NCBI RefSeq assembly: GCF_031178195.1
Contig: NZ_JAPSJL010000008.1
Coordinates: 1 to 64,000, forward strand
Origin: Zhihengliuella sp.
GTDB lineage: Bacteria > Actinomycetota > Actinomycetes > Actinomycetales > Micrococcaceae
Direction: 5' to 3'
Length of the DNA: 64,000 nt
Notes under the pieces: generated by a model
Databases searched by the model: none
Told to the model about the DNA's origin: nothing
Seen by the model: only the letters and a program-made list of their open reading frames with translations
Shown: in pieces, positions 32,806-37,035 of the stretch
How the letters are laid out: every line of letters starts with the position of its first letter
Numbering within the stretch: the first letter of the stretch is position 1
Made by a program: the position numbers and the translations under genes

Positions 32806-33330
32806 ATGAGCCACGACGTCACCATCGAGATCCCGGCGGGATCGCGCGTCAAGTACGAGATCGACCACGAGACCCACCGCCTGCGGCTGGACCGCGTGCT
32901 GTTCACCTCGATGCAGTACCCGACCCACTACGGATACTTCGAGGACACGCTGGGCGAGGACGGCGACCCGCTGGACGCGATGGTGTGGATCCCGGGCGTC
33001 GACCTGATCCCCGGCGTGATCGTCGAGTCGCGCCCGATCGGCGTGTTCAACATGACGGACGACGGCGGCGGAGACGCCAAGCTGCTGTGCGTGCCGACGG
33101 ACAAGCGGTTCGACCACATCCGCGAGCTCGAGGACGTCGACGAGTGGCTGATCAAGGAGATCGAGCACTTCTTCACGCGCTACAAGGACCTGGAGCCGGG
33201 CAAGTGGGTCAAGGCCGAGGGCTGGCAGGGCCGCGAGGCCGCCGAGGCCGAGCTGGCCGCGTCCGTGGAGCGGTTCGACCGCCTCGGCGAGGAGTCCGAG
33301 GAGGACGAGCCGCAGGGTCGCGACGTCTGA
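32806..33330 (+). CDS. ppa: Inorganic pyrophosphatase
   Basis: Family I soluble pyrophosphatase hydrolyses PPi to two phosphates, pulling biosynthetic reactions forward. The 174-aa sequence carries the signature [13 protein letters not shown] with the metal-binding aspartates, [13 protein letters not shown], and a C-terminal [19 protein letters not shown]. Length is typical of bacterial hexameric enzymes; the acidic tail EESEEDEPQ is an extension. GGAG precedes the ATG. A clear hairpin terminator follows. Confidence 0.95.
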
Positions 33331-33370
33331 TCGACGACGGCGACGACGGCGCGTCCTGATCGACGGCGTA

Positions 33371-33399
33371 GGGCGGTCCACCGGTTCGGTGGGCCGCCC
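33371..33399. terminator. Terminator after ppa
   Basis: GGGCGGTCCACCG pairs with CGGTGGGCCGCCC (one G-T pair, three-base loop), followed by TTCGT, about 40 bases beyond the ppa stop. Confidence 0.7.
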
Positions 33400-33445
33400 T
33401 TCGTCGTCTCGGCCGCGCTGCTCGCCCCGGGACGGGTCGGGTTTA

Positions 33446-34129
33446 ATGGATTCGATGCCCTCCGTCCCGCTCCCGCGTCCGTCCCGGCGGCCGCGTCCGC
33501 GCCTGGTCCCGATGACGCCGCTGCAGCAGCTGCGCGCGCCACGCAAGCCGCTGCGCCTGCTGAACCTGACCCTCGGGATCGTGGTGCTGGGCATCGGCGT
33601 GGGCCTGTTCGTGCGCGCGGGGTTCGGCCTCTCGCCCTGGGACGTCCTGCACCAGGGCCTCAGCAGGCTGCTTCCCATCAGCTTCGGCACCGTGATCGTG
33701 CTGCTGGGGCTGCTGATCCTGCTGCTCTGGATTCCGCTGCGGCAGTGGCCGGGGTTGGGCACCGTCGTGAACACCTTCGCCGTCGGGCCGATCGCCGACC
33801 TGACGATCGCCCTGATGCCGCCGATCCACGGGCTCGGGTGGCAGGCCGGCGCCATGGCGCTGGCCACCGTCCTCGCGGCCTTCGGCACCACGCTCTACAT
33901 CGGGGCGCAGTTCGGCGGCGGTCCTCGCGACGGCCTCATGACGGGGCTCCACTTCCGGACCGGGCTGAGCGTCCGCGTCATCCGCACCCTCATGGAGCTC
34001 ACCGCGCTGGCCGTCGGCTGGCTCCTGGGCGGCGTGGTCGGCATCGGCACCGCGGTGTTCGCCCTGTCGATCGGGCCGCTCTGCCAGCTCTTCTTCCGCT
34101 GGACCGTCGTGGACCTCGAGCGCCGCTGA
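33446..34129 (+). CDS. YczE-like membrane protein, copy 1
   Basis: This 227-aa membrane protein has five or six segments (LLNLTLGIVVLGIGVGLFV, GTVIVLLGLLILLLWIP, and three C-terminal ones) and the YczE-type motifs GLSPWDVLHQGLS, IPLRQWPGLGTV and GPRDGLMTGLHFRTG. The function of the family is unknown; members are commonly encoded beside YczR-type MocR regulators. It converges with such a regulator here and shares most of its sequence pattern with the second copy at 35676. A nearby ATG at 33455 is an alternative start. Confidence 0.82.
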   Translation: MDSMPSVPLPRPSRRPRPRLVPMTPLQQLRAPRKPLRLLNLTLGIVVLGIGVGLFVRAGFGLSPWDVLHQGLSRLLPISFGTVIVLLGLLILLLWIPLRQWPGLGTVVNTFAVGPIADLTIALMPPIHGLGWQAGAMALATVLAAFGTTLYIGAQFGGGPRDGLMTGLHFRTGLSVRVIRTLMELTALAVGWLLGGVVGIGTAVFALSIGPLCQLFFRWTVVDLERR

Positions 34130-34160
34130 CCCGACGGGCCGGTCAGTGGCGCCGGCCGGC

Positions 34161-35615
34161 TCAGCCGGCGACCTCCTCCCAGGCCTCCGCGATGCGCGGG
34201 AGCGCCCACTCGAGCTCGTGCCCGGCCTGGGCGAAGGGGATCCGCATCCAGTGCTCCAGCCCGTGGTCCTCCACGGCGAACATCGAGCCCGGCGCCAGCA
34301 GCACGCCGCGCCGGCCCGCCGCCGCGGCCAGGGCCGTGGACGCCGGCCGCGGCAGCTCGAACCACAGTGAGAGGCCGCCGGCCGGCCGGCGCGCCCTCCA
34401 CTCCGGCAGCAGCTCCGCCGCCCGCTCCAGCACCAGGTCGCGGGTGGCCCCTAGACGCGCCCGCGTCTCCGGCAGCAGGTCGCTGCCGCGTTCCAGGAGC
34501 CGCGCGAGCACCAGCTGGTCCAGCACCGGGGCGCCCAGGTCCAGCGTCATGCGCATCCGCGCGAGGCCGCCGACCAGCGCGTGCGGTGCCCGGATCCAGC
34601 CGAGCCGCAGCCCGCCCCAGTGGGACTTGCTGGCACTGCCGATCGTCACGACGTCGTTGGAGAACCCGGCCATCGGGCGCACGTCGGGCTCGTCGTCCAG
34701 CCACAGGCGCGCGCACGTCTCGTCGACGATCCCCGTGGCCCCGGCCCGCCGCAGCTCCCCGGCCCACCGTTCGCGCACCTCGTCGGAGGCGAGCGTGCCG
34801 ACCGGGTTGTGGAAGTCCGGCAGGCAGAGCATCGCCCGGGCGCCGCTGGAGCGCAGCGCGCCGGCGACGGCGTCCACGTCCGTGCCGTCGGCACCGATGG
34901 GCACGGGCGCGACGCGCACCCCGTGGTGGCGCAGCGACGTGACGCTGTTGGGGTACGTGGGGCTCTCGGCCAGTGCGACGGCGCCCGGCTTCAGCAGGAG
35001 CCGGGCGGCCGCAGCCACGCCGGCCAGGGCGCCGGCGGTCACGAGGACCTGCCCGGCGTCCGTCGGCACGCCGCGGCGGGTGTAGTCGGCGGCGATCGCC
35101 TCGCGCAGCGCCGGGACGCCGAGCGGGAAATAGCCCATGCCGCTGATATAGGCGGGCAGCTCGTCGAGGGCCTCCTGATAGACGGCGGCCAGCCCCACCG
35201 GGGCGGAGGGCGCGGCGCAGGTGAGGTCGACGCCGGTGGGCTCGCCGACGCCGTCGTACGCCCCCGAGGCGCCGCCGCGCGGCCCGAAGCCGCCGAGCGG
35301 CAGGGGCTCCGCGCCCCCGACGACGGGGCCGCCCGGGACGCGGGCGATGGTCCCGGCCCCGACGTGGGCGCTGGCGTAGCCGCGGTCGCGCAGTTCGGCG
35401 TACGCGCGGGAGACCGTGGTCCGGCTGAGGCCGAGCGTGCTGACGAGCTGGCGCTCGCTGGGCAGCGCGGTGCCGTGGATGATGCGGCCGTTGGCGATGA
35501 GCTGGCGGATGGAGTCGGACAGCCACGCGTAGGCCGGCCGCGCCGCATCGGGCTCGCCGAGCATCGCGGCGAGGCGGCCGCCGCCGAGGCGACGGGCGGG
35601 TGTGATGGTGGCCAT
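34161..35615 (-). CDS. MocR-type PLP-dependent transcriptional regulator (YczR-like)
   Basis: The 484-aa protein fuses an N-terminal GntR winged helix-turn-helix (SERQLVSTLGLSRTTVSRAYAELRDRGYA) to a fold-type I aminotransferase-like domain. The PLP-binding lysine is in GSASKSHWGGLRLGW, with DFHNPVGT upstream. MocR proteins sense PLP or amino-derived ligands. Its genomic pairing with YczE-like membrane proteins on both sides identifies it as a YczR-type regulator. The ATG at 35615 is preferred over the TTG used in the track. CAGAAT six bases before the ATG may be a -10 of a leaderless promoter. Confidence 0.9.
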   Translation of the reverse strand: MATITPARRLGGGRLAAMLGEPDAARPAYAWLSDSIRQLIANGRIIHGTALPSERQLVSTLGLSRTTVSRAYAELRDRGYASAHVGAGTIARVPGGPVVGGAEPLPLGGFGPRGGASGAYDGVGEPTGVDLTCAAPSAPVGLAAVYQEALDELPAYISGMGYFPLGVPALREAIAADYTRRGVPTDAGQVLVTAGALAGVAAAARLLLKPGAVALAESPTYPNSVTSLRHHGVRVAPVPIGADGTDVDAVAGALRSSGARAMLCLPDFHNPVGTLASDEVRERWAGELRRAGATGIVDETCARLWLDDEPDVRPMAGFSNDVVTIGSASKSHWGGLRLGWIRAPHALVGGLARMRMTLDLGAPVLDQLVLARLLERGSDLLPETRARLGATRDLVLERAAELLPEWRARRPAGGLSLWFELPRPASTALAAAAGRRGVLLAPGSMFAVEDHGLEHWMRIPFAQAGHELEWALPRIAEAWEEVAG

Positions 35616-35632
35616 GGAGCCATTCTGCTGCA

Positions 35633-35657
35633 ATTGGCTATTTTTTCAAGGTCCAAT
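35633..35657. promoter_or_regulatory. ATTGG-N15-CCAAT inverted repeat between the MocR gene and YczE copy 2
   Basis: In the 60-base divergent intergenic region the pair ATTGG and CCAAT flank an AT-rich tract (CTATTTTTTCAA). It is the only obvious operator-like element for the MocR regulator and lies over both divergent promoters. Confidence 0.45.
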
Positions 35658-35675
35658 CGCGAGCAGAGTGGAGGC

Positions 35676-36389
35676 ATGGCACAGACGACCCACCCGAGGC
35701 TCCTCCCGCTGACCCCGCTCCAGCAGCTCCGCGCCGGACGGCTCCCGCTGCGACTCGTCAACCTGTTCGTGGGGCTCACCCTGTTCGGCGCCGCCATGGC
35801 GGTCTTCATCCGCGCCGGCCTCGGCCAGGCGCCGTGGGACGTCCTGCACGTCGGGCTCAGCACGCGGCTGCCCCTGAGCATCGGCACCATCATCATCCTG
35901 CTCGGCTTCGTGGTCCTGCTGCTGTGGATCCCGCTGCGGCAGTGGCCCGGCCTCGGCACCATCGCCAACGTCCTGTGGCTCGGCGTGGCCGCCGACCTCA
36001 CCCTGTGGCTGGTGCCGCCCATCGAGGGCCTCGGCTGGCAGATCGCGGCCATCGGGGCGGCGCTGGTGGTCAACGGCATCGGCGGCGCCCTCTACATCGG
36101 CAGCCAGTTCGGGCCCGGCCCGCGCGACGGCCTGATGACCGGCGTCCACCTGCGGACCGGGATCAGCATGCGCCTGGTCCGGACCGTGGTGGAGGTGACG
36201 GTCCTCGCGATCGGCTGGTTCCTCGGCGGGATCGTCGGCGTCGGGACGGTCGCGTACGCCCTGCTCATCGGTCCGCTCACGCAGTTCTTCCTGCGCTGGA
36301 GCGTGGTCGAGCTCCCCGACGCGACCGTTCCGCCGGAGCACGACGCGACCGCCCGCCCCGCCGCCGAGCCCGCGGCCTGCCGCTTGTAG
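35676..36389 (+). CDS. YczE-like membrane protein, copy 2
   Basis: This 237-aa paralogue of the gene at 33446 shares LTPLQQLRAGRLPLRLVNL, GQAPWDVLHVGLS, IPLRQWPGLGTIAN and GPRDGLMTGVHLRTG, with the same membrane topology and an added acidic/Ala-rich C-terminal tail. GGAG lies five bases before the ATG. It is transcribed divergently from the MocR gene across a 60-base intergenic region, the arrangement expected of the regulator's primary target. Transport or stress roles have been suggested for relatives, but none is established here. Confidence 0.85.
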   Translation: MAQTTHPRLLPLTPLQQLRAGRLPLRLVNLFVGLTLFGAAMAVFIRAGLGQAPWDVLHVGLSTRLPLSIGTIIILLGFVVLLLWIPLRQWPGLGTIANVLWLGVAADLTLWLVPPIEGLGWQIAAIGAALVVNGIGGALYIGSQFGPGPRDGLMTGVHLRTGISMRLVRTVVEVTVLAIGWFLGGIVGVGTVAYALLIGPLTQFFLRWSVVELPDATVPPEHDATARPAAEPAACRL

Positions 36390-36438: not shown

Positions 36439-37035
36439 ATGTACGTGGTGACCATCAACCAGCGGGACACGCGCGCGGCCGGGGACCGCGTCGACGACCT
36501 CGTCCGCGCCCTCGAGGACCTGCCGACGGCGTCCGCGTTCCGGCGCTCGGTGGCCGACGAGGCGATCGGCATCCTGACCGAGCCGGCCGCCGTCGTCACC
36601 GCGGCCCTCACCGCGCTGCGGGAGCGGCGCTGGAACGTCGGCATCGGCGTCGGATCCCTCCACGAGCCGCTGCCGGAGGAGCTCGACGACGTGCGCGGCC
36701 CCGCGATCGTCCACGCCCGGCGCGCGGTCACCGCCGCCCAGAAGATCGGCGAGCGCGTGCCGCTCGTGGTCGCCGGCCCGGACCCGGACCTCGCCGCCGA
36801 GGCCGAGGCAGTCCTGCGCCTGCTGGGCCACCTCGTGGCCCATCGCACCGCGGCCGAGTGGGCCGTCGTCGACCTGCTGGTCCCCGGGGTGCGCGGCCAG
36901 CACAAGGACATCGGCGCGGCCCTCGGGATCACCAGCCAGGCCGTGTCCAAGGCGGTCCTCCGCGCCCAGGCGAAGGAGGAGTGGGCCGCCCGGCCCGCCG
37001 CCGCGCGGCTGCTCGGCCTGCTGCACGCCTCCTGA
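36439..37035 (+). CDS. SatD-like protein with C-terminal helix-turn-helix
   Basis: This 198-aa protein starts MYVVTINQRDTRAAGDRVDDLVRAL and has the central RWNVGIGVGSLHEPLPEEL segment typical of SatD-family proteins. The C-terminus is a sigma-like or MarR-like helix-turn-helix (KDIGAALGITSQAVSKAVLRAQAKEEW). SatD is found in stress/antibiotic-tolerance loci of some Gram-positives, but its mechanism is unclear. The gene stands alone after YczE copy 2, with its own CATACT -10-like sequence upstream. Confidence 0.75.
   Translation: MYVVTINQRDTRAAGDRVDDLVRALEDLPTASAFRRSVADEAIGILTEPAAVVTAALTALRERRWNVGIGVGSLHEPLPEELDDVRGPAIVHARRAVTAAQKIGERVPLVVAGPDPDLAAEAEAVLRLLGHLVAHRTAAEWAVVDLLVPGVRGQHKDIGAALGITSQAVSKAVLRAQAKEEWAARPAAARLLGLLHAS

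Follow-up and report, generated by a model that had tools for sequence, protein, structure and literature searches.

YczR and YczE constitute a widespread pair of a regulator and a membrane protein. In Actinobacteria the pair was described by Milano et al. 2016 (PMC4944035), who named the residue positions diagnostic of the YczR subgroup, reported a yczE gene divergent from yczR and gave an operator motif made up of GGCCA, a 12-nt spacer and TGGCC, with an extra direct repeat in some families; duplicated yczE copies are not mentioned in that work. Curated NCBIfam equivalog cut-offs stand at 487 bits for YczR (NF052290) and 205 bits for YczE (NF052291). As to the role of the membrane protein, Bacillus YczE has been credited, in the passage of PMC6457013 that cites Koumoutsi 2007, with acting post-transcriptionally on the synthesis of bacillomycin D, and PMC6677901 remarks that a sulfur-compound transporter may be under YczR control. 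Neither counts as evidence for Zhihengliuella, in which the locus described here carries a yczR gene flanked by two copies of yczE.

The locus occupies positions 33455-36389 of the window, that is, of the whole 64-kb stretch of DNA analysed. A YczR-type MocR regulator on the minus strand (yczR, 34161..35615, 484 aa, 538 bits against NF052290) lies between two YczE membrane-protein genes on the plus strand, the derived paralogue yczE1 (33455..34129, 224 aa, 220 bits against NF052291) and the ancestral copy yczE2 (35676..36389, 237 aa, 239 bits). A first-pass annotation had recognized a MocR regulator flanked by two YczE paralogues; all three genes are confirmed where it placed them, each scoring above the curated cut-off. 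Its interval, 33446-36389, gives the gene positions correctly except at the start of yczE1, which is better placed at 33455 because the ATG at 33446 overlaps a putative -10 hexamer (33442-33447). YczE1 and YczE2 share 61% identity, and a genome search returned no further yczE in the source genome. The gene yczE1 converges on yczR, their stop codons lying 31 bp apart, and yczE2 diverges from yczR across 60 bp. On the left, the inorganic pyrophosphatase gene ppa (32806..33330, plus strand; Pfam PF00719, E 1e-54) fixes the synteny and is a conserved neighbor of yczR in Zhihengliuella, Glutamicibacter and Paeniglutamicibacter. On the right, a 198-aa protein (ORF198, 36439-37035, plus strand) is likewise conserved near yczE2 in these three genera and matches no family in Pfam or NCBIfam.

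YczR joins a GntR winged helix-turn-helix domain (PF00392) to a fold-type-I aminotransferase domain (Aminotran_1_2, PF00155). Judged against the positions named in PMC4944035, it carries the marks of the subgroup, namely the PLP lysine and the pyridine-N aspartate, the D-E-T motif and a glutamate before the DNA-reading arginine; the PLP lysine (within GSASKS) and the DET and SER motifs are invariant in the YczR alignment. Both YczE proteins exceed the equivalog cut-off, and an alignment of 50 YczE proteins that includes both copies retains 38 invariant columns. Their AlphaFold models share the same helix order in a multi-helix membrane fold (pLDDT 94.0 for YczE1 and 89.8 for YczE2). Pfam offers only a sub-threshold match to YitT (PF02588), an identity that was rejected: YczE1 scores 24.2 against a gathering cut-off of 24.3, YczE2 scores 11.9, and neither has a C-terminal DUF2179 match. 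Among solved structures there is no relative of YczE by sequence and no significant match by fold (best E 0.58, TM 0.2), so no mechanism can be transferred to it.

Among the genomes sampled, the sandwich of yczE1, yczR and yczE2 is confined to Zhihengliuella, where it is present in four of five genomes. No other member of a 298-genome Micrococcaceae sample has it; yczE occurs in 189 of these genomes, nearly always as a single copy, and in the few with two or three the copies lie apart from one another (two apparent doubles are each one split gene). For instance, one such genome, G118, carries two yczE genes 9.7 kb apart (contig L234, at about 5716 and 15413). In a 395-genome sample of the class, another 28 genomes have two yczE copies, either far apart or in tandem, and never around a yczR; the tandem pairs leave no room for one. 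Tandem yczE-yczE pairs lacking yczR were seen in three small genomes (L220, L222 and L223; 1.6-1.8 Mb) from one family of the class. None of the named YczR loci outside Zhihengliuella places another yczE next to yczR. Among named loci, the nearest are those of Z. salsuginis KCTC 19466 (88% YczR identity) and of a strain that was deposited under the name 'Kocuria polaris' MS50-16 and groups by genome with Zhihengliuella. The fifth Zhihengliuella genome (L117, labeled Zh2 in the trees) has yczE2 only.

Gene order identifies the newcomer. In Paeniglutamicibacter (L155) and Arthrobacter sp. MYb227 (L130) ppa is followed, after a gap of about 100 bp, by a convergent yczR and its divergent yczE, and the place of their single yczE corresponds to that of yczE2. 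The original copy is thus yczE2, with yczE1 inserted later in the gap separating ppa from yczR. The missing copy in L117 could be taken for the ancestral state, a reading that was rejected because this genome is nested within the genus: a tree of four neighboring genes places the source species first, followed by Zh3, Zh1 and then Zh4 with Zh2, so the absence is a loss. The E1 tree follows the same order, and in Zh2 the region 3' of ppa can be aligned to its counterpart in the sister genome (90%) before it runs into yczR.

Where yczE1 came from is a matter for the phylogeny that the first-pass annotation had called for when it spoke of paralogues arising by duplication, and duplication in the stem of Zhihengliuella is most likely the explanation. 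A 120-row tree unites E1 and E2 in a clade with support 98/83 (88-89/84-90 in smaller trees), supports E1 alone at 100/100 and gives E1 a long stem, 0.92 changes per site as compared to 0.18 for E2. At positions 129 and 136 the two copies have states in common that are rare in other YczE proteins, and no closer relative of E1 was found in any genome sampled. The long stem favors a rival view, in which yczE1 was acquired independently, either by horizontal transfer or through a more ancient duplication followed by losses in other lineages, and merely resembles a local duplicate. Three other placements of E1 are not rejected by the AU test, one outside E2 plus Glutamicibacter (p 0.28), one beyond all single copies from Micrococcaceae (p 0.09) and one in which E1 joins Glutamicibacter (p 0.29), which makes an older origin or an acquisition possible. 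There is a precedent in G118, where the YczR-linked yczE groups with that of Arthrobacter MYb227 and the lone copy with Glutamicibacter, so that the YczR pair looks acquired. Weighed against the E1+E2 clade, the shared states and the lack of a closer relative in the sampled genomes, independent acquisition is nonetheless unlikely. The same event had been named in the first-pass annotation as what would refute duplication; the trees disfavor it, although the AU test leaves the alternatives standing.

The divergent region between yczR and yczE2 contains a predicted YczR operator of 38 bp with three half-sites (35618..35655; AGCCA-N12-TGGCT-N11-GTCCA). The first, AGCCA (35618-35622), and the second, the inverted TGGCT (35635-35639), make up an inverted pair, to which GTCCA (35651-35655) adds a direct repeat. 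With its divergent yczE, inverted pair and direct repeat, this site fits the published YczR motif, and it does so at yczE2 only. Among 178 different yczR-yczE intergenic regions, the first pair of half-sites is found in 124, as compared to 0.6 expected from shuffles, and all three in 91, against 0.01 expected; 89 of the 91 triple sites have identical spacing and span exactly 38 bp. The three-half-site operator is far beyond chance, and it is defined more sharply here than in the published actinobacterial set. Scored with an operator matrix, the source site reaches 45 bits, being itself among the training sites, and the next best site within the window scores -3. A whole-genome pattern search for TTGGCNNTTTTTTNNNNGNCCA with up to two mismatches matched the site at 35618-35655 and nothing else. 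The operator-like ATTGG-N15-CCAAT noted in this 60-bp region by the first-pass annotation is indeed present and belongs to a YczR-type site, but it comprises two half-sites, one part of a longer element. A consensus scan also found one promoter-like site for yczR (35622..35649, minus strand; 0.2 expected), with a -35 of TTGAAA (35649-35644) and a -10 of CAGAAT (35627-35622) 6 nt before the ATG; the stretch from the -10 to the start is conserved in all five Zhihengliuella species. As this promoter-like site lies inside the operator, the arrangement suggests that YczR may control its own transcription.

The region upstream of yczE1 is organized differently. A terminator-like hairpin follows ppa (33366..33404, plus strand; -33 kcal/mol, z -6.0, with no shuffle as good) and separates it from yczE1; it has no T-run, and was hence missed by the terminator consensus scan. 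Downstream of the hairpin lies TTTAAT (33442..33447, plus strand), the putative -10 of a leaderless yczE1 promoter. It stands 7 nt before the start, a spacing typical of leaderless transcripts from actinobacterial promoters. TTTAAT-N7-RTG is kept in all four species with yczE1, and in the window (72% GC) this TTTAAT is the only one on either strand. Read-through from ppa was considered as a source of yczE1 transcription and judged unlikely given the hairpin and the predicted promoter. Z. salsuginis carries a 1.5-kb insert between ppa and yczE1 (L112:5716-7206) with minus-strand nucleotidyltransferase-like and HTH-like ORFs that appear toxin-antitoxin-like by eye.

No YczR operator was found before yczE1 with the operator matrix: the best score is -30 bits versus +45 for the true site, and -14 or lower in the other species. 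By its promoter, yczE1 falls outside the YczR regulon, the genome's sole site being at yczE2. Given its own promoter, the ppa hairpin and the lack of a YczR site, yczE1 should be transcribed independently of both ppa and YczR, and a paralogue that escaped from YczR is the best reading of this arrangement. A remaining tie between yczE1 and YczR, mediated by a degenerate site or by transcripts of the convergent genes yczE1 and yczR colliding, is quite improbable. The convergent layout, the short gap kept in four species and the failure of a consensus scan to find a terminator between the two genes would suit such a tie, but the operator scores argue against it.

Both copies are, by their substitution ratios, under purifying selection. 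Between species within one copy dN/dS is about 0.10-0.28 (0.17-0.26 among yczE1 orthologues), and between yczE1 and yczE2 it is 0.33-0.61. A pseudogene status for yczE1 was rejected, the frame being open in four species with a dN/dS of about 0.2. Twelve well-conserved sites of the YczE family are altered in E1, four of them in E2 too; roughly eight sites that are conserved across the family, E2 among it, are changed in every E1 sequence, which raises the prospect that E1 has a different rather than a redundant activity. The most suggestive of these changes is P147G, next to the invariant GPRDG motif where a short helix begins. In Z. salsuginis, yczE2 (L112:9371-10057) has an in-frame TGA at codon 111, a tryptophan codon in relatives, with the rest of the frame open; this could be a real loss or a sequencing error. 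Together with the absence of yczE1 from L117, it suggests that each copy is dispensable somewhere, and YczE1 and YczE2 are probably partly redundant. That YczE1 took on a different substrate or job after its escape from YczR is a tentative proposal, drawn from the rapid change along its stem and the fixed P147G.

The idea that the two proteins form an obligate hetero-oligomer under YczR as one unit, the strict form of a suggestion made in the first-pass annotation, is very improbable: the adjacent paralogues are retained together in four species under purifying selection, but one genome has yczE2 alone, another has a stop codon inside yczE2, relatives manage with one yczE and no YczR site lies at yczE1. 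Its other suggestion, split functions, is borne out at the regulatory level, with the operator at yczE2 alone and a predicted leaderless promoter at yczE1.

Taken together, the locus is likely a known YczR-yczE pair to which a second, genus-specific yczE was added by duplication, one that lacks the operator, is independent of YczR and is partly redundant. In an ancestor of Zhihengliuella, yczE would have been duplicated, with the second copy landing between ppa and yczR and the original, yczE2, staying under the operator of the divergent promoter. Through its aminotransferase-fold domain YczR would presumably sense a ligand, an amine or a PLP-type compound, and it would control yczE2 and itself. 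The new copy, placed behind the ppa hairpin with no operator, would be expressed from its own leaderless promoter regardless of YczR, and would have changed fast at first before settling under purifying selection. As a result, YczE1 may be present at a constant level and YczE2 at a ligand-dependent one, with partial redundancy between membrane activities that are identical or differ slightly. Positions, synteny, operator, promoter element, selection and losses are features of the sequences themselves; the duplication, the expression pattern, the redundancy and the ligand sensing are deduced from them, and the regulation is what the DNA would predict.

Set against known systems, the sandwich is a real but small, Zhihengliuella-specific variation on a known regulator-target pair and is not surprising in kind. 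It shares with the actinobacterial YczR-YczE regulon (PMC4944035; NF052290/NF052291) a divergent yczR/yczE2, the PLP lysine and aspartate, and an operator of the GGCCA-N12-TGGCC type with a direct repeat; it differs in the extra convergent yczE with no operator and a predicted leaderless promoter of its own. Paeniglutamicibacter (L155) and Arthrobacter sp. MYb227 (L130) have the same neighbors, an S13 peptidase, ppa, yczR, yczE, ORF198 and DUF1761, but no gene between ppa and yczR. Two-copy genomes (G118, G644, G680 and G694) likewise have more than one yczE, at least one of them without YczR; their copies do not surround yczR, the two in G118 apparently resulting from an acquisition and those in the other three forming tandem pairs with no yczR nearby. 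To our knowledge, Bacillus YczE has no MocR partner. It is encoded beside sfp and belongs to the same COG2364 membrane family, the B. subtilis protein matching NF052291 below the cut-off, and differs in the effect on bacillomycin D reported for it (as relayed in PMC6457013). Within Zhihengliuella, one copy with an operator, one without and natural single-copy relatives provide ready-made controls for defining YczR targets and the role of YczE; if YczE1 has indeed become neofunctionalized, the pair is itself a natural comparison for finding that role.
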